Source of the DNA: Sulfurovum sp. bin170
Lineage (GTDB): Bacteria; Campylobacterota; Campylobacteria; Campylobacterales; Sulfurovaceae
Length of the DNA stretch: 16,612 nucleotides
Reading direction: 5' to 3'
Assembly (NCBI RefSeq): GCF_010892395.1
Contig: NZ_JAACKB010000317.1
Coordinates: 1 to 16,612, forward strand
The first letter of the stretch is position 1, and each line of letters begins with the position of its first letter. Shown here piece by piece: positions 3,017 to 16,612 of the stretch. The translations under genes were made by a program, and so were the position numbers. Below the pieces are notes generated by a model, which had not been told where the DNA came from, did no database searches, and was given only the letters and a program-made list of their open reading frames with translations.

Positions 3017-3096
3017 TAGATATCTTGTAAAACTCCTTGGAGTTGGAGACTTTAGCCCAATGCCAATGAATTAGCGAGGCTGAAGCCATCGGTTCC
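3017..3096. repeat. Dispersed inverted-repeat element, copy A (right end missing)
   Basis: It begins with the terminal motif TAGATATCTTGTAAAACT (3017-3034), followed by a GGAGTTGGAGACTTTAG arm, the loop CCCAATGCCAATGAATTAGC, and a GGCTGAAGCCATCGGTTCC arm ending at 3096. The outer right terminal repeat seen in copy B is absent. It fills nearly all of the gap between the LapB-like gene and rnc, with 19 bases left before the rnc start and 10 before the upstream stop codon. It has no coding potential. Confidence 0.85.
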
Positions 3097-3106
3097 AAAT
3101 AAATGG

Positions 3107-6650: not shown

Positions 6651-6664
6651 GGCTTCTCCTTTAA

Positions 6665-6756
6665 TAGACTTCTTGCAAAACTCCTTGGAATCGGAGACTT
6701 TAGTCCCGAACATTACGAGGTTGAAGCCATCGGTTCCTAGTTTTGCAAGATGTCTA
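6665..6756. repeat. Dispersed inverted-repeat element, copy B (complete, 92 bases)
   Basis: This is the best-preserved copy. Terminal repeats TAGACTTCTTGCAAAACT (6665-6682) and, inverted, TAGACATCTTGCAAAACT (6739-6756) match at 17 of 18 positions. Inside them are partly complementary arms GGAATCGGAGACTTTAG and GGTTGAAGCCATCGGTTCC around the loop TCCCGAACATTACGA. If the ends are taken as GAC/GTC, the element is flanked by TA on each side. No protein is encoded. Confidence 0.85.
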
Positions 6757-6801: not shown

Positions 6802-6835
6802 CTGTAACCATTCTGTAACCTTTTTTCAATATAAT
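6802..6835 (+). promoter_or_regulatory. Pho box and -10 of the porin gene
   Basis: Two identical half-sites CTGTAAC (6802-6808 and 6813-6819) are separated by 4 bases, an 11-base register. A perfect TATAAT follows at 6830-6835, exactly 10 bases after the second half-site. In E. coli the PhoB box (CTGTCAT-like repeats, 11-base register) replaces the -35 and sits about 10 bases before the -10, so layout and half-site both fit a PhoB-type activator. The same design precedes the PiT gene. Confidence 0.75.
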
Positions 6836-6868
6836 TACCCAATTAAAACAGAAATGGAGTATATAGGT

Positions 6869-7945
6869 ATGAAAAAAATCTTATTATCAGCAGTAGCATT
6901 GGCTACTTTGACAACGATGGCAACAGCAGGTGAGGGAACAGAGGTTAAATCAAAAGTTCCAGTTCTTAAGTTTTCAGGTAAACACTATCTTGGATTTGTA
7001 AGCTCAGAGACAGATGGAGAAGATAGAATCAATAAGTTTGAGACTAGAAGAAACTACTTTCAGGTAAAAGCTTATTTCAAAGATAATCCAAAGAGTTATA
7101 TGAGAACAACGCTTGACACTCATCAGATTGATGATAGCAAACATGAGGACTCTAATGGAGATACTGTTGGTAAAGATATGGATGGTACATGGAATGTTAG
7201 ACTTAAGTATGCTTTTTTATACTTAGATAATGTACTACCAAACACAGGTATTGAGCTAGGACAAGTACATAGACCGTGGATTGACAATGAAGAGCATGGT
7301 GGATGGAACTATCGTTCAATCTCAAAAGTTTATGTTGAAGCTGATAAGGGTGCTCACCTTACTAACTCTGCTGATTTAGGTTTTAACCTAAAGACTAAAA
7401 CAGAGAATTTCTCTAGTGAACTAGGTCTATTTAACGGTGAGGGTTACCACAATGATGACAATGAGAATGAAGCTGGACTTAGTGCTGAGTGGAGACTTAC
7501 AGGTCATATCCTTGGTGGTGGTAAAAGCAAAGCTAAAAAGAAAAACAGTTATGCAAATGTCTCATTTTTTGGTCAACAGAATCAAGAGAGTGGAAAGCAC
7601 AAAAATGAAGACCTAAACTGGATGGGGCTTCATGCTGTATATAATCAACCAGCATTTCTACTTGCAGGACAGTATATCACTGTAGATGATGGTCACACAG
7701 GATACAAAGGTGATGGTTACTCAATCAATGGTGAGTATAGATTTGCCAAAAAATGGAACGCTATAGGACGATATGATTTCTTTGATATGGATGATAATTC
7801 TGGTGAGAAGAAAAGAGCAATTGCTGGTGTAACATATCAGTATAACAAAAATGTAGAGTTTATTGCTAACTACCTTGGAGAGGGTGGAAGTGCAGTTGGT
7901 AAAAGAACCGATGCTGTTATGTTAACAACGGAGATTAACTGGTAA
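6869..7945 (+). CDS. Porin-like outer-membrane beta-barrel protein, probably phosphate-regulated
   Basis: The 358-residue product has a clear signal peptide (MKKILLSAVALATLTTMATA, then GEG). The mature part is rich in alternating hydrophobic/polar strands with acidic and aromatic residues, has no membrane helices, and ends in an aromatic residue (INW), as outer-membrane barrels do. A porin role is inferred; sequence alone does not show whether it selects phosphate. The start chosen is the ATG at 6869; an in-frame ATG at 6854 overlaps GGAG, the ribosome-binding site, and would prepend MEYIG to the signal peptide. A Pho box lies directly upstream and a hairpin terminator directly downstream, so it is a single-gene unit. 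Expression is expected to rise in phosphate shortage. Confidence 0.8.
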   Translation: MKKILLSAVALATLTTMATAGEGTEVKSKVPVLKFSGKHYLGFVSSETDGEDRINKFETRRNYFQVKAYFKDNPKSYMRTTLDTHQIDDSKHEDSNGDTVGKDMDGTWNVRLKYAFLYLDNVLPNTGIELGQVHRPWIDNEEHGGWNYRSISKVYVEADKGAHLTNSADLGFNLKTKTENFSSELGLFNGEGYHNDDNENEAGLSAEWRLTGHILGGGKSKAKKKNSYANVSFFGQQNQESGKHKNEDLNWMGLHAVYNQPAFLLAGQYITVDDGHTGYKGDGYSINGEYRFAKKWNAIGRYDFFDMDDNSGEKKRAIAGVTYQYNKNVEFIANYLGEGGSAVGKRTDAVMLTTEINW

Positions 7946-7956
7946 TTATCTCTCAC

Positions 7957-7980
7957 TTCCCCTTTTGGGGAATCTCTTTT
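7957..7980 (+). terminator. Rho-independent terminator after the porin gene
   Basis: TTCCCC and GGGGAA pair around a TTTT loop (7957-7972), followed by a T-rich tract. It begins 12 bases after the stop codon. Confidence 0.85.
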
Positions 7981-8012
7981 CTTAATTAATAACTATCCTA
8001 TACCATATCTGA

Positions 8013-8018
8013 TACAAT
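8013..8018 (+). promoter_or_regulatory. Candidate -10 box for the MscS-like gene
   Basis: TACAAT lies 18 bases before the ATG at 8037, downstream of the porin terminator, so the channel gene seems to have its own promoter with a leader of about 12 bases. No strong Shine-Dalgarno and no Pho box are seen. Confidence 0.4.
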
Positions 8019-8036
8019 TACAAAAAAGCAATAAAA

Positions 8037-9662
8037 ATGCACATATTAAAACTTACTATTACTATCTTTATCACTATTATCTTCCTCTCTCTATCTAGTC
8101 TCGCCAACGAAAATACTATCTATACACTACTTGAACTACAAAAGTCCAAAATTATTTTGGAAGATGAAATCAAAATAAAAACGATACAGGAGTATACCTC
8201 AACGCTAGATGATGAAAAAAAGCGTCTAAAAGATGAGATTAGACAACTTGATAAAAAGGTCAATGAGTTAAGAAGAAAATTTGAGATGATAGCAATAGGT
8301 ATTGATATATCTTTGGAAGACTCTAGTAAAACCCCCTCTAACAATACCGTAAGTGAAGATTTTCATCTACTTATTAAACCTCTTATAGAGAGTGCAAAAG
8401 AGCTAACCAAAGAGATAAGAAAAAAAGCACAGCTTCAAGAGGAGATAGAGTATTATGATAGAGTTCTCCCTAAAGCGGCTCAAGCATATGAGAATATCGA
8501 AACTCTCTTAAACAGTACCAAAAACAGAACTTTAACAAAAGAGCTACTGGCTCTTCAAGAGTATTGGAACAGACAGATTACACTGCTCTCAAGCAATATG
8601 AACGCCTCCATGCATCAAGTAGAGATGTTAGACAAAAATAGTATCTCTTTTACAGAGTCACTCCACGAGAGTAGCAAAAGCTTTTTTCAAGAGCGAGGGT
8701 TGTTTTTGTTGGAGGGTTTTTTAGCATTTTTGGCTGTTATTATTGTTATGCATACTATTCACATTATAGCTATTAAACTTTTTCCAATTTTTACCAAAGC
8801 AAATCGTAGTTTTCATCTAAGACTCTTTGACCTTCTCTATCGTATTTTCACAGCACTGTTGGCGATTATAGTTCCAATGGCTGTATTTTATTATGAAGAG
8901 GATTGGGTACTTTTTAGTTTTGGTCTTTTGATTCTTTTTGGTATCGCTTGGACATTTCGACGCTTTATCTCAAAGCTATGGCAACAGGCACGACTCCTTC
9001 TAAATATCGGTTCAGTGCGTGAAGATGAACGAATCCTCTATCTTGACCTGCCGTGGAGAGTAAAAAATATCAATATTTTTACGATTATAGAGAACCCAGT
9101 ATCTGGTGTGAGTCTTCGTATCCCTATAGAGGAGTTGATTGGGTTGGCTTCGCGACCTTCACTCGAATATGAGCCTTGGTTCCCTTGTAAAGTGGGTGAT
9201 TGGCTTCTTCTCTCCAATGACTATTATGGAAAGGTAGTGGGAATCTCACTAGAGTTTATAGAGTTTGTTGATGTTGGTGGTGGACATAGGAGCTACATAG
9301 TATCGGACTTTTTAGCACTATCTCCACAAAATCTATCGACGGATTTTAGAATCATAGATAGCATAGGGATTGGTTATGGTCATCAAAAAGAGAGTACTAC
9401 TATTATTGTGAAGCAGTTGGAGAGTTTTATATTGCAAAAAATAGAAAAAGAGGGATACAGAGATGGGCTTAAAAAGTTGATAGTTCAGTTCTCTCATGCA
9501 GGGGAGTCATCACTTGATATTGCTATAGTTGCCAACTTCAATGGAAATATGGCACCTCTCTATCATCGTCTGCGTAGGTCTATTGGGCGATGGGCTGTTG
9601 AGGCTTGTAGTGAGTATGGTTGGGAGATTCCATTTAAGCAGATTACGATTCATAATAGTTAA
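8037..9662 (+). CDS. MscS-family mechanosensitive channel with long periplasmic coiled-coil N-terminus
   Basis: The 541-residue product has a signal peptide (cleavage near LSSLA-NE), then about 190 residues of charged helix with coiled-coil character (about 30-210), three membrane segments (about 221-247, 263-287 and 290-311), and a cytoplasmic part. The stretch GSVREDERILYLDLPWRV (from about 325) with IPIEELIGL resembles the MscS beta domain, and EPWFPCKVGDWLLL (about 379-392) with GKVVGISLEFIEF looks like a further beta segment. It belongs to the larger MscS relatives rather than the roughly 290-residue E. coli MscS. A role in releasing solutes on hypo-osmotic shock is known for the family; a phosphate link is suggested only by its position between two Pho-box genes. 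Its stop abuts repeat copy C. Confidence 0.8.
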   Translation: MHILKLTITIFITIIFLSLSSLANENTIYTLLELQKSKIILEDEIKIKTIQEYTSTLDDEKKRLKDEIRQLDKKVNELRRKFEMIAIGIDISLEDSSKTPSNNTVSEDFHLLIKPLIESAKELTKEIRKKAQLQEEIEYYDRVLPKAAQAYENIETLLNSTKNRTLTKELLALQEYWNRQITLLSSNMNASMHQVEMLDKNSISFTESLHESSKSFFQERGLFLLEGFLAFLAVIIVMHTIHIIAIKLFPIFTKANRSFHLRLFDLLYRIFTALLAIIVPMAVFYYEEDWVLFSFGLLILFGIAWTFRRFISKLWQQARLLLNIGSVREDERILYLDLPWRVKNINIFTIIENPVSGVSLRIPIEELIGLASRPSLEYEPWFPCKVGDWLLLSNDYYGKVVGISLEFIEFVDVGGGHRSYIVSDFLALSPQNLSTDFRIIDSIGIGYGHQKESTTIIVKQLESFILQKIEKEGYRDGLKKLIVQFSHAGESSLDIAIVANFNGNMAPLYHRLRRSIGRWAVEACSEYGWEIPFKQITIHNS

Positions 9663-9667
9663 AAGTA

Positions 9668-9837
9668 GGAACCGATGGCTTTAGCCCAATGCCAATGAAT
9701 TAAGCTAAATAGTTCGGGTGTAAACACGCCGATTCCGAAAATGCAGATTGCATATAAGGAACCGACGGCTTCAGCCTCGCTAATTCATTGGCATTGGGCT
9801 GAAGCCTCCGATTCCAAGGAGTTTTGCAAGATATCTA
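9668..9837. repeat. Dispersed inverted-repeat element, copy C (head-to-tail doublet)
   Basis: Read on the minus strand, a full unit starts with terminal repeat TAGATATCTTGCAAAACT (9837-9820) and ends at 9758; its arms (9797-9815 and 9758-9776) pair at 16 of 19 positions around a 20-base loop. A second unit runs from CCGATTCC at 9736 to GGAACC at 9668 and has lost its outer terminal repeat. Arms 9668-9705 and 9779-9815 from the two units also form a long inverted repeat. The block fills most of the 242 bases between the MscS-like and PiT genes and is the only candidate terminator structure there. Confidence 0.85.
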
Positions 9838-9843
9838 TTTACT

Positions 9844-9877
9844 ATGTTACCGTTCTGTAACCTTTTTATAATATACT
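9844..9877 (+). promoter_or_regulatory. Pho box and -10 of the PiT gene
   Basis: Half-sites ATGTTAC (9844-9850) and CTGTAAC (9855-9861) stand in the same 11-base register as the porin box, and TATACT (9872-9877) begins exactly 10 bases after the second half-site. The shared core TTCTGTAACCTTTTT is identical in the two promoters. An alternative -10 (TATAAT, 9867-9872) would break the spacing. Confidence 0.75.
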
Positions 9878-9904: not shown

Positions 9905-11443
9905 ATGAACAACTCTATCAAAGTTATTCTAGGAGCAGGATTTGCAATAGCTGTTGCTTTCTATGTAAACTACGCATTTGGAGATATACCAAATGTAGGT
10001 TTTCTCATGATGGCAGCCGTTTTTGGTGCTTATATGGCGATGAATATTGGAGCTAATGATGTAGCAAACAATGTAGGGCCAGCTGTTGGAGCAGGTGCGT
10101 TGACAATTGGAGGGGCGATTGTTATCGCTTCTATATTTGAGGCAGCAGGTGCGTTAATCGCAGGTGGAGATGTTGTAAAGACTATCAAAAAAGGGATTAT
10201 TGACCCTTCTGCTTTTGCAGGTGACCCTATGATATTTGTCTATGCGATGGCAGCGGCACTCTTGGCGGCGGCTCTTTGGTTGACATTGGCAACTATGCTC
10301 AAAGCTCCTGTATCCACAACCCACTCAATTGTTGGTGGTGTTATGGGTGGTGGTATTGCTGCTGGTGGATTTGCCATTGTCTCATGGGGAACTATGGGTA
10401 AAATCGCTGCTTCTTGGGTTATCTCTCCAGTACTTGGTGGACTAATTGCTGCTGGATTCCTCTATATTATCAAATCCAAAATTGTATTTACGGATAACAA
10501 GCTAGAGTCTGCAAAAAAGATTGTTCCTATTTTAGTATCAGTTATGGCGATGGCATTTATTACTTACTTGACAGTAAAAGGTCTAAAAAAAGTATGGGTT
10601 GATATTGTAGAGATTCTTCCATTTTTACCTGTGGTTGATAAAAAACCAACAATTGGTATTGCTCTGATATTTGGTGTGATTGGTGCATTTATCACCTATG
10701 TGATTGTTAAACCTCGTGTAGCATCTAAGGTGGCAACACTTGAAGATAGTAGAGCCTCTATCAATACTCTGTTTACGATTCCTCTTATCTTTGCTGCCGC
10801 ACTACTATCTTTTGCTCATGGTGCAAATGATGTTGCGAATGCTGTTGGACCTTTGGCTGCTATTTTTGATTCTCTATCAAATACAACTATTTCAGCCAAA
10901 GCATCTATCCCATTATGGGTAATGGTCGTTGGTGGTATTGGTATCTCTGTTGGTCTAGCACTATTTGGTCCAAGACTTATCAAAACTGTTGGTTCAGAGA
11001 TTACAGAGCTTGACCAGATGAGAGCGTTTTCTATTATGATGGCTGCTTCGATTACGGTTGTTATCGCTTCACAGCTTGGATTGCCTGTATCTTCGACTCA
11101 TATCGCGGTTGGTGGTGTATTTGGTGTTGGTTTCCTTAGAGAGTGGCTTGACCGTAATGCAAGTTCTGCAAAACATGAGGAGCTTCAAACACAACTAGCA
11201 GTAGTTGATGGGTATAAAGTAGAGCTTGAAAATGTAGGTAGTGACTATAAGAGAAAATCTGAACTCTTTGAGATTGTCAAGGCAGAGAAGAAGATTGCTA
11301 AAGTAATCAAAAAAGAGTTAAAAGAGAAGTATGTTAAGCGAGGTATGGTTCAAAAAATTGTAGCTGCTTGGATTATTACTGTTCCTGTGGCTGCTGTTCT
11401 TTCGGCTGTTATATTCTTTATTCTTAAGGGGATTGGGGTTTAA
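9905..11443 (+). CDS. pit: PiT-family low-affinity inorganic phosphate transporter
   Basis: The 512-residue inner-membrane protein carries both copies of the PiT signature, GANDVANN (49-56) and AHGANDVANAVGP (from 304), each followed by the paired motif PVSTTHSIVGG or PVSSTHIAVGG. The inverted duplication is typical of the family, which moves phosphate with a cation. Hydrophobic segments cover most of the chain, apart from a charged helical stretch (about 425-485) before the last membrane segment. Length matches the Campylobacterota members I recall. AAAGGGAT lies just before the ATG. A Pho box lies upstream, which is notable because E. coli pit genes are not classic PhoB-activated genes. No DUF47/PhoU-like partner gene is next to it. 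Confidence 0.95.
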   Translation: MNNSIKVILGAGFAIAVAFYVNYAFGDIPNVGFLMMAAVFGAYMAMNIGANDVANNVGPAVGAGALTIGGAIVIASIFEAAGALIAGGDVVKTIKKGIIDPSAFAGDPMIFVYAMAAALLAAALWLTLATMLKAPVSTTHSIVGGVMGGGIAAGGFAIVSWGTMGKIAASWVISPVLGGLIAAGFLYIIKSKIVFTDNKLESAKKIVPILVSVMAMAFITYLTVKGLKKVWVDIVEILPFLPVVDKKPTIGIALIFGVIGAFITYVIVKPRVASKVATLEDSRASINTLFTIPLIFAAALLSFAHGANDVANAVGPLAAIFDSLSNTTISAKASIPLWVMVVGGIGISVGLALFGPRLIKTVGSEITELDQMRAFSIMMAASITVVIASQLGLPVSSTHIAVGGVFGVGFLREWLDRNASSAKHEELQTQLAVVDGYKVELENVGSDYKRKSELFEIVKAEKKIAKVIKKELKEKYVKRGMVQKIVAAWIITVPVAAVLSAVIFFILKGIGV

Positions 11444-14742: not shown

Positions 14743-14894
14743 TAGACTTCTTTCAAAACTAGGAACCGATGGCTTCAGCATAAGGATTTAGACAAGGGAA
14801 TCCCTTGTCTCTACGGTTTTGAAATTAAAATATTGTAGGGACAATGGCATTGGACTAAAGTCTCCGATTCCAAATGAATTTTGAAAGAAGTTTA
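14743..14894. repeat. Dispersed inverted-repeat element, copy D (with internal insertion)
   Basis: Terminal repeats TAGACTTCTTTCAAAACT (14743-14760) and, inverted, TAAACTTCTTTCAAAATT (14877-14894) flank arms AGGAACCGATGGCTTCAGC and TAAAGTCTCCGATTCC. Both ends share the same TTTC for TTGC change, so they have changed together. The middle holds about 70 extra bases, including a palindrome. It fills the whole gap between two convergent genes. Confidence 0.85.
14791..14809. repeat. Perfect palindrome nested in repeat copy D
   Basis: GACAAGGGA and TCCCTTGTC are exact inverted repeats around a single A. GTCTCTAC at 14807-14814 partly pairs with GTAGGGAC at 14835-14842. It lies between convergent genes and could serve as a bidirectional terminator or be a second, smaller repeat family. 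Confidence 0.7.
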
Positions 14895-14896
14895 GT

Positions 14897-16612
14897 TTAA
14901 ACCTTAAACCCCATACTACTCTCTCCATCAAAACTAGAACCAAGCTCTTTCTCTATCTCCTCTAAAAAATCTTGCATAGAGAATAGAGATTCATCTCTGA
15001 CGGCAACTTTATAGGCAGTATTACGGACAATGAGGTCTATCTGCCCACCAGTTAGCTCATGTTTGGCTAATATATTTACATCAAAACCCTCTTCATAGTC
15101 GGCTTTTTCTAGTAGCATAAAGTGCCATAGTCTCTTTCTTTGTATAATGCCAGGTTTTTTGAACTCTATTTTGTAGTTAAATCTTCGCGAGAAGGCTTTG
15201 TCTATATTGTCAAGTAGGTTGGTTGTGGCTATTAGGATACCTTCAAACTTCTCTATCTGCTCCAAGAAGATATTTTGCATCTGGTTGTGCATCTTGTCAG
15301 CACTGCTTCCTGCACCCTCTGTTCGGCTACTGAGGAACTGGTCTGCTTCATTTAGTAGCAAGATTGGGTCAACTTTTGCTTTTTTGCTTAGGATTTTAAA
15401 ATCGTCAAAGATTTTACGGACATTTTTTTCGCTCTCTCCTACATACATAGATAGAATCTTGGAGCAGTCAAAGCTTAGGATAGGGCGTTTGAGTGTTTTG
15501 GCTAGACTCATAGCTGTCATGGTTTTTCCTGTTCCAGGGGAGCCGTAGAAGATGATTCTTGCATCTATCCCTTTTCTTTTATCTTTGATTCCCCACTCTT
15601 TTAGTTTTTTAAAGACATCTTTGTCAACTTGTTTGATGACTGTATCAAGTACAGCTCTTGTTTTTGGGTGAAGTACCACATCATCTAGTGTAGTGGTTGT
15701 CTTTAGACACTCAAACATCTCTTGCTCTTCTACTAGTTTATCTAGCTTAAGTTTGGTTACTTTTTTCTTTTTGTTTGGATGGATAATCTTTTGAAGTATA
15801 TCATCTTGGAGGTAGAATGAACGGCTGATTCCACCAAACATATTGAGTATCTCCTCATAATCTATGATATTTTCACTAATTAGTTTAGAGCCATCTTCAA
15901 GCAAGGAGCGGTTACGAATCTTCTCATACTCATCTAGGGATATAAGCTCTATAAGGGTGTTCATATCACGGAACTGCCCCTCTCCTCCTGAGTACTCCTC
16001 TTTTAGAAGAGCCAAGAATATCTTCTCCTCCTGCTCAGAAAACTCTTTTTCCTTGAAAAACTCCTCTACAATAATCGGCTCTTTTGTAATCTCTAGCCTT
16101 GCATCAATGCGTTTAGATAGAAGAGTTAGTTTACTCTGTAATCTACCTGCACTTAGTGAGCTATCACTAAAACCCTGTTTGGATATAGCTATTTTGTGTA
16201 GAAGTTCTATAATGTCAAACTGGTCTTGGAGATACTCAAGATGGTCAGTATATGGTTTTATCTCTGGTAGTATAATCTCCATCGACCCCTCTTCAAGTAG
16301 TCTAAGCAGAGCCATGCTAGGGCTTATGGAGCTATTTAGTATCTCTAGTTTGGAGACTTCTTGAATTTTTATATGCCCAAAACTTATTTGAACAATCCAA
16401 CCCAAGTCTATAAGCTTCTTAATCAAAGAGAGATGATTTAGATGCTCATAATCTTTGGATTTGAAGTTATCTTGTAGGATTTCTAGTACAGATGTCTCTT
16501 CTAACCCTTGCACAAATCGTCTACTTATATACTGTAACAGTGTTGCCTCTTGGGGAGAACATTTTAAATCTTTATAGATTAGTGCTTTTTCAACTTTTTT
16601 GGCTTCGATAAA
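14897..16612 (-). CDS. AAA+ ATPase, 5' end beyond the window
   Basis: The reading frame is open to the window edge, so the true start lies outside; a GTG at 16511-16513 is inside the gene, since 33 further codons upstream read as normal protein (for example KCSPQEATLLQYISRRF). The visible N-terminal ~330 residues are helical and not recognised. The C-terminal AAA+ module has Walker A GSPGTGKT (codons 15544-15521), Walker B ILLLNEADQF, sensor 1 IATTN and an arginine pair in AFSRRF. In Walker B the usual aspartate is asparagine (codon 15352-15350) while the catalytic glutamate is kept; I recall NEAD in a subset of AAA+ ATPases. The module resembles the protein-remodelling AAA+ clade (Cdc48/FtsH type) without a protease domain. 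The target is unknown. The stop is 2 bases from repeat copy D. Confidence 0.8.
   Translation of the reverse strand, partial: FIEAKKVEKALIYKDLKCSPQEATLLQYISRRFVQGLEETSVLEILQDNFKSKDYEHLNHLSLIKKLIDLGWIVQISFGHIKIQEVSKLEILNSSISPSMALLRLLEEGSMEIILPEIKPYTDHLEYLQDQFDIIELLHKIAISKQGFSDSSLSAGRLQSKLTLLSKRIDARLEITKEPIIVEEFFKEKEFSEQEEKIFLALLKEEYSGGEGQFRDMNTLIELISLDEYEKIRNRSLLEDGSKLISENIIDYEEILNMFGGISRSFYLQDDILQKIIHPNKKKKVTKLKLDKLVEEQEMFECLKTTTTLDDVVLHPKTRAVLDTVIKQVDKDVFKKLKEWGIKDKRKGIDARIIFYGSPGTGKTMTAMSLAKTLKRPILSFDCSKILSMYVGESEKNVRKIFDDFKILSKKAKVDPILLLNEADQFLSSRTEGAGSSADKMHNQMQNIFLEQIEKFEGILIATTNLLDNIDKAFSRRFNYKIEFKKPGIIQRKRLWHFMLLEKADYEEGFDVNILAKHELTGGQIDLIVRNTAYKVAVRDESLFSMQDFLEEIEKELGSSFDGESSMGFKV

Follow-up and report, generated by a model that had tools for sequence, protein, structure and literature searches.

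Two promoters in Sulfurovum sp. bin170, one ahead of a porin gene and the other ahead of a phosphate transporter gene of the PiT family, look alike, which raises the question of whether one regulator reads both. The window analyzed here is the whole stretch of 16,612 nucleotides, contig C358 of an assembly of 2,124,559 bases in 462 contigs that is 83% complete. Our answer is that both sites are very probably PHO boxes, from which a PhoB/PhosR-type regulator would switch on the porin and PiT genes in low phosphate. What is observed directly is the two sites, how they are conserved and spaced, and how they go together with pst, pho, PiT, and porin genes in relatives.

The porin promoter, on the forward strand like the PiT promoter and the two genes, carries a box at 6802 to 6819 in which the half-site CTGTAAC occurs twice in an 11-base register (6802 to 6808 and 6813 to 6819). 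The −10 element, TATAAT at 6830 to 6835, begins 10 bases past the second half-site, and the porin open reading frame (ORF) at 6869 to 7945 encodes 358 amino acids from its second ATG. The PiT promoter follows the same plan, with ATGTTAC (9844 to 9850) and CTGTAAC (9855 to 9861) in an 11-base register within a box at 9844 to 9861 and a −10 element, TATACT at 9872 to 9877, again 10 bases past the second half-site. The gene behind it (9905 to 11443; 512 amino acids) encodes the phosphate transporter that an earlier note, made from this sequence alone, had supposed, matching PF01384 (PHO4) at E 5.2e-109 over the full profile (positions 1 to 350 of 350). Its closest relatives, at 75 and 73% identity, come from two metagenome genomes of Sulfurovum, followed by three from Campylobacterales or Epsilonproteobacteria at 71 to 72%. 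The identical core that the note had remarked on is the 15-mer TTCTGTAACCTTTTT, found at 6811 to 6825 and again at 9853 to 9867. Its description of paired CTGTAAC half-sites standing 10 bases before a −10 box stands for register and spacing at both promoters and has to be amended in two respects: the motif is TGTWAY, the upstream PiT half-site ATGTTAC having 2 mismatches to CTGTAAC, and the PiT promoter also holds a TATAAT at 9867 to 9872, 5 bases past the second half-site, which may be an almost equal alternative −10.

A passage of PMC4415409 describes the PHO box as two 11-nucleotide direct repeat units in which 7 bases are conserved and 4 are less so. Both promoters have two conserved 7-base units arranged as an 11-base direct repeat, and both have the 10-base spacing to the −10 element, in place of a −35 element. 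A phosphorylated response regulator of the PhoB/PhosR type, most likely the product of G000:C111:6437-7123 in the same genome, would bind the repeats head to tail and replace the −35 element just ahead of the −10, turning on both genes when phosphate is scarce; the porin would then widen or specialize phosphate entry through the outer membrane, and PiT would move phosphate over the inner membrane.

The exact pattern TGTWAYN5TGTWAYN10TAYAMT, for which the reversed pattern served as the control, has 2 matches in the window versus 0 in 200 dinucleotide shuffles, and the whole assembly contains just these two sites, with 0 for the control. The likeness of the two promoters is thus real and far above chance, as the earlier note had argued. 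With up to 2 mismatches, the same genome yields 24 matches versus 14 for the control. The scan that the note had proposed, with a CTGTAACN4CTGTAAC half-site matrix (run here with up to 3 mismatches and no −10), turned out to be unspecific, giving 141 matches versus 137 for its control. Pooling 81 sites led to the consensus tTGTWAYCAWTTTGTWAYC with TATAMT.

Genes behind the box in relatives

Among 60 relatives, the exact pattern matched 73 times and the reversed pattern 5 times. Eighteen of these matches were placed by coordinates, 17 of them before the window's porin family and 1 before PiT; for 51, the downstream ORF was read; 3 had no ORF; and one (G044:C25:18277) was left unread. Comparison with reference proteins by phmmer assigned 42 of the 55 matches that were not placed by coordinates: 20 to PstS, 8 to Porin_5, 6 to PstB, 2 each to PstC, a PhoB-like regulator, and a PlcP-like phosphoesterase, and 1 each to PhoU and a glycosyltransferase. 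The box therefore precedes pstS, pstB, pstC, phoU, or the regulator gene in 31 of the 55 and a second porin family in 8. The earlier note had named many hits at non-phosphate genes as the sign that its model was wrong; what we found is that 49 of the 73 matches stand before pst, pho, PiT, or the window's porin family.

For conservation upstream of given genes, homologues were gathered by protein search, at most 30 loci being scanned for each of the four genes, and the highest-scoring site in the 450 bases upstream was taken, with a cutoff of at least 16 of 18 positions; the counts include the genes of the window as well as the search queries, and the pstS and regulator queries originated from box matches. 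A site at the cutoff stands ahead of pstS at 30 of 30 loci scanned (32 genomes matched), ahead of porin homologues at 23 of 28, the window porin included (30 loci less two that are fragments of a single gene of G010), ahead of PiT homologues in whole genomes at 15 of 30, the window PiT included (38 genomes matched), and ahead of the PhoB-like regulator at 13 of 30 (45 genomes matched). Letter-shuffled upstreams reach the cutoff in 0 to 0.7% of cases, and the reverse-strand control gives 4/30 for pstS, 1/28 for the porin, 1/30 for PiT, and 1/30 for the regulator. These counts bear out the PHO-box model of the earlier note, and the absence of the site before pst and pho genes, which it had set against that model, is contradicted in relatives by pstS. 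Sites also occur ahead of 14 of 23 PlcP-like genes, 5 of 29 pstB genes, and 8 of 79 PiT loci of a wider named set; the one locus dropped from each of these sets (of 24, 30, and 80) was without upstream DNA.

The spacing is conserved as well. At the cutoff, gaps of 10, 9, and 11 bases gave 30, 0, and 1 loci for pstS; 23, 1, and 1 for the porin; 15, 0, and 1 for PiT; and 13, 0, and 3 for the regulator, so that gap 10 is ahead of both neighbors in all four gene sets. At 80 loci chosen for PiT, 27 entries scored at least 17, and by eye, from the first residues, 25 of them lie before pst, phoU, phoB, PiT, or porin genes and the remaining 2 do not. The PiT loci of named genomes were considered as a neutral control and rejected as not neutral; 24 of 263 ORF upstreams, PiT included, reach 16/18.

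Across the class, 87 of 298 genomes have an exact match, with 142 matches versus 11 for the control. Twenty-seven further loci were read and gave PstS in 10, a PstS-like protein in 1, PstC in 5, PhoU in 2, and other proteins or no ORF in 9. In two genomes of family f8 (L412 and L414), the exact box precedes the same 326-amino-acid protein with a signal-like start.

There may also be a lipid-remodeling arm (loci L192, L196, L174, L190, L316, and L324). The candidates are the PlcP/LpxH-like phosphoesterase, the one boxed glycosyltransferase, and an acyltransferase-GNAT fusion of the OlsF, or ornithine-lipid, kind, which in G009 and G035 lies near the regulator or PiT. PlcP and OlsF are names that we assume to apply. 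The phosphoesterase scores as LpxH-like in NCBIfam, under that family's cutoff, and therefore may be something other than PlcP. The sites at PlcP-like genes and the presence of the OlsF-kind fusion resemble the lipid remodeling by PlcP and ornithine lipids under phosphate starvation. Ornithine lipids are reported in Sulfurimonas in a passage of PMC9789136.

Porin families under the box

Because the same DNA signal precedes phosphate-uptake genes in relatives, the window porin is probably a phosphate starvation gene, made when phosphate runs short. What it prefers to carry is a separate matter: there is a serious prospect, falling somewhat short of even, that the PHO box is real and the porin is of the general kind, its level simply rising in low phosphate without any preference for phosphate. 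The predicted structure is a 16-stranded barrel (pLDDT 79.9), and in the structure comparison the scores of PorB, OprP, OprO, and Omp32 differ by no more than 1 Z unit. With general porins scoring equally in Z, the fold speaks neither for nor against kinship to OprP. Pfam Porin_O_P gave no match to the porin at E up to 0.5; the top sequence match in the PDB is Porin P, at an E of 0.024 over 63 profile positions, which is not significant; and PF13609, which we take to be a general porin family, is found on 19 of 120 listed relatives. OprP of Pseudomonas aeruginosa is induced in low phosphate, and the window porin shares with OprP/OprO the predicted 16-stranded barrel; it differs from them in having no significant sequence match and a fold tied with general porins.

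Pointing toward phosphate are the basic residues R60, R61, K67, R79, K113, and R209, which are invariant, and one relative to which NCBI gives the name OprO/OprP family phosphate-selective porin, a name and not a test. Gene neighborhoods, with names given by resemblance, point the same way. In G032, the order is box, porin, regulator, box, pstS; in G051, a boxed porin gene is divergent from a boxed pstSCAB-phoU-kinase cluster (the kinase was checked separately); and in G058 and G053, pstS and the porin are followed by a box and pstC, with phoU, a regulator, and a likely kinase divergent. To judge by these resemblances, porin homologues are inside or beside pst-pho clusters in all four genomes. 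PstA was rejected as the identity of the boxed gene in G058 and G053, which phmmer assigns to PstC.

A different family, Porin_5 (PF16930, checked on L212), is boxed in eight relatives (L183, L185, L194, L200, L212, L215, L218, and L220), which would fit a porin of general type. All eight are without a match to the window porin: boxed Porin_5 occurs in 0 of 29 genomes with such a match versus 8 of 31 without (P = 0.005; boxed Porin_5 only and kinship ignored). Aligned with each other, the two porins match mainly over the N-terminal region, signal peptide included (24 bits; E 0.004 in a single comparison). This pattern suggests that two porin families take turns at the same job.

Between the porin and PiT genes, at 8037 to 9662 of the window, lies a gene for a 541-amino-acid protein with no Pfam match; its C-terminal part is, by eye only, mechanosensitive-channel-like.

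The candidate regulator and other accounts of the box

The genome contains one match to the regulator at E 1e-50, C111:6437-7123, which is 68% identical to the G009 protein and has a PF00072 receiver domain and a PF00486 winged-helix (Trans_reg_C) domain. Its top NCBIfam family among 85 is PhoB, at 166.9 bits. Among the 60 genomes, the box is present in 34 of 45 with the regulator versus 6 of 15 without (Fisher P = 0.024); outside the genus, the counts are 10 of 19 versus 0 of 7 (P = 0.023), with kinship ignored in both tests.

Direct repeats of 10 to 11 bases are common at OmpR-family sites, and OmpR has porins among its classic targets. The boxes might be operators of another OmpR-family regulator, one responding to osmotic, acid, or envelope stress that also controls phosphate genes, and a further response regulator resembling the PhoB-like protein is encoded nearby, at L314:5082-5735. 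We regard this as very unlikely, since the box marks pstS, pstC, pstB, phoU, PiT, and the gene of the PhoB-like regulator itself, and its presence tracks that regulator.

The window also contains an interspersed palindromic repeat, at 3017 to 3101, 6663 to 6756, 9661 to 9839, 14743 to 14779, and 14842 to 14901. The second and third copies lie just upstream of the two boxes, and the 59-nucleotide promoter stretches are 76% identical, as they might be if the likeness came from a copied repeat element and not from selection on an operator. That origin is extremely improbable: the repeat does not contain the boxes, which begin about 45 and 4 bases past it; whole or partial copies are present in at least 13 other stretches of the genome, whereas the exact box occurs twice in the whole assembly; and in other species each promoter is kept at the ortholog of its own gene. 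Chance in AT-rich DNA, for which one could cite the half-site pair being no commoner than its control when the −10 is left out, is practically eliminated by the shuffles, the reversed-pattern controls, the upstream conservation, and the class-wide counts.

Several observations count against PHO boxes under this regulator. Nine of the 51 downstream ORFs read in relatives fall outside all reference families; one of them, in G035, is PstS-like by eye and is followed by apparent pstC, pstA, and pstB. Sites with other spacings also reach the cutoff, at gap 7 for pstS (15/30) and gap 5 for the porin (17/28) and PiT (14/30), which we attribute to T-runs and overlapping elements; in the PiT set, gap 5 is about equal to gap 10 (15/30). 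Half of the PiT loci (15/30) are below the cutoff, the wider named set has 71 such loci among its 79, and 17 of 30 regulator loci are without a box at the cutoff. Families f10 and f13 nearly lack the TGTWAY-form box, with matches, by eye, in 2 of about 101 and 5 of about 89 genomes versus about 80 of 108 in the remainder. The PhoB equivalog cutoff (TIGR02154; 296.2 bits) is not reached by the regulator, which we therefore call PhoB-like only; its own gene has no upstream box (best site, 14/18); and six boxed genomes have no regulator match at E 1e-50. Finally, the assembly, which is 83% complete, yielded no candidate for pstS, pstB, or PhoU.

With these candidates absent, the search for the site before pst and pho genes of the same genome, which the earlier note had proposed, is limited to the regulator gene, which has no upstream box and does have one over its stop codon. 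For PhoU, the Pfam threshold of E 1e-8 was too strict, missing a PhoU of G025 that hmmscan recognizes, and the evidence used is only the zero first-look candidates in this genome. The box over the stop codon (G000:C111:7119-7151; L314) is the genome's sole one-mismatch match to the exact pattern. In G032, G033, G011, G022, and G017, the pstS promoter lies 1 to 14 bases behind the regulator gene. No start codon occurs in the 70 bases between the orphan box and the end of the contig. Likely, pstS was lost here and its promoter left over, although the contig stops at this point and the assembly lacks about 17% of the genome. G015, which is 99% complete, has no PstS or PstB match; it has the regulator, a porin site of 18/18, and a PiT site of 16/18. 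We tentatively suggest, giving the idea less than even weight, that some Sulfurovum, including this one, may run their Pho regulon with neither Pst nor PhoU. PiT and the Pho-box porin would then be the main uptake route, the regulator would have to sense phosphate without the Pst-PhoU signal complex, and the box at the 3′ end of the regulator gene would be the relic of a pstS promoter.

Known phosphate regulons

The E. coli PHO box, to which PhoB binds, sits 10 bases before the −10, and PhoE is an example of a porin under its control. The present box resembles it in repeat layout, in the 10-base spacing to the −10, and in placement before pstS and a porin. It differs in the half-site, which is CTGTCAT in E. 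coli and TGTWAY in the pooled sites, where CA mostly comes after the first half-site. The PHO-box motif varies by species, according to a passage of PMC4415409, and we therefore regard CTGTCAT as defining the E. coli box only. Unlike in E. coli, the boxed genes here include PiT, two porin families, and possible lipid genes, and the regulator is under the PhoB equivalog cutoff.

In Campylobacter jejuni, the PhosR box has the consensus GTTTC-N6-GTTTC, and the earlier note had suggested that the present lineage may use a distinct PhoB-type site. The half-site core is indeed different, GTTTC there and GTWAY here; the system is probably not a separate one, as the two boxes have the same 11-base register and both precede pstS. 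The C. jejuni system is likewise a phosphate regulon, in the same phylum. GTTTC-N6-GTTTC-N10-TANAAT, built on the C. jejuni consensus, has 15 matches versus 13 for its control in the 298 genomes and 11 versus 4 in f10, a family that we guess to be the Campylobacteraceae. PstS is downstream in 6 of the 15, and one PstS-like and one other secreted protein were recognized by eye. The count is barely above the control, and the telling point is the placement before pstS in f10, which suggests that the two boxes follow a single layout in which the core of the half-site has drifted. The pstSCAB genes of C. jejuni are directly regulated by PhosR according to a passage of PMC3197622, and the PHO box and PhosS/PhosR are treated in part of PMC9449129; passages of PMC5588614 have no bearing on the subject.

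Searches of the open-license literature, as far as titles, the starts of abstracts, and some passages go, turned up no Pho-box paper on Sulfurovum or other free-living Campylobacterota, nor any in the phylum beyond C. jejuni; pstSCAB, phoU, and phoB are annotated in one free-living Campylobacterota genome in a passage of PMC4674564. The pattern described here can serve to define the phosphate starvation operator in many Campylobacterota. It marks an uncharacterized porin as a likely phosphate starvation gene and points to possible lipid-remodeling genes under the same control.

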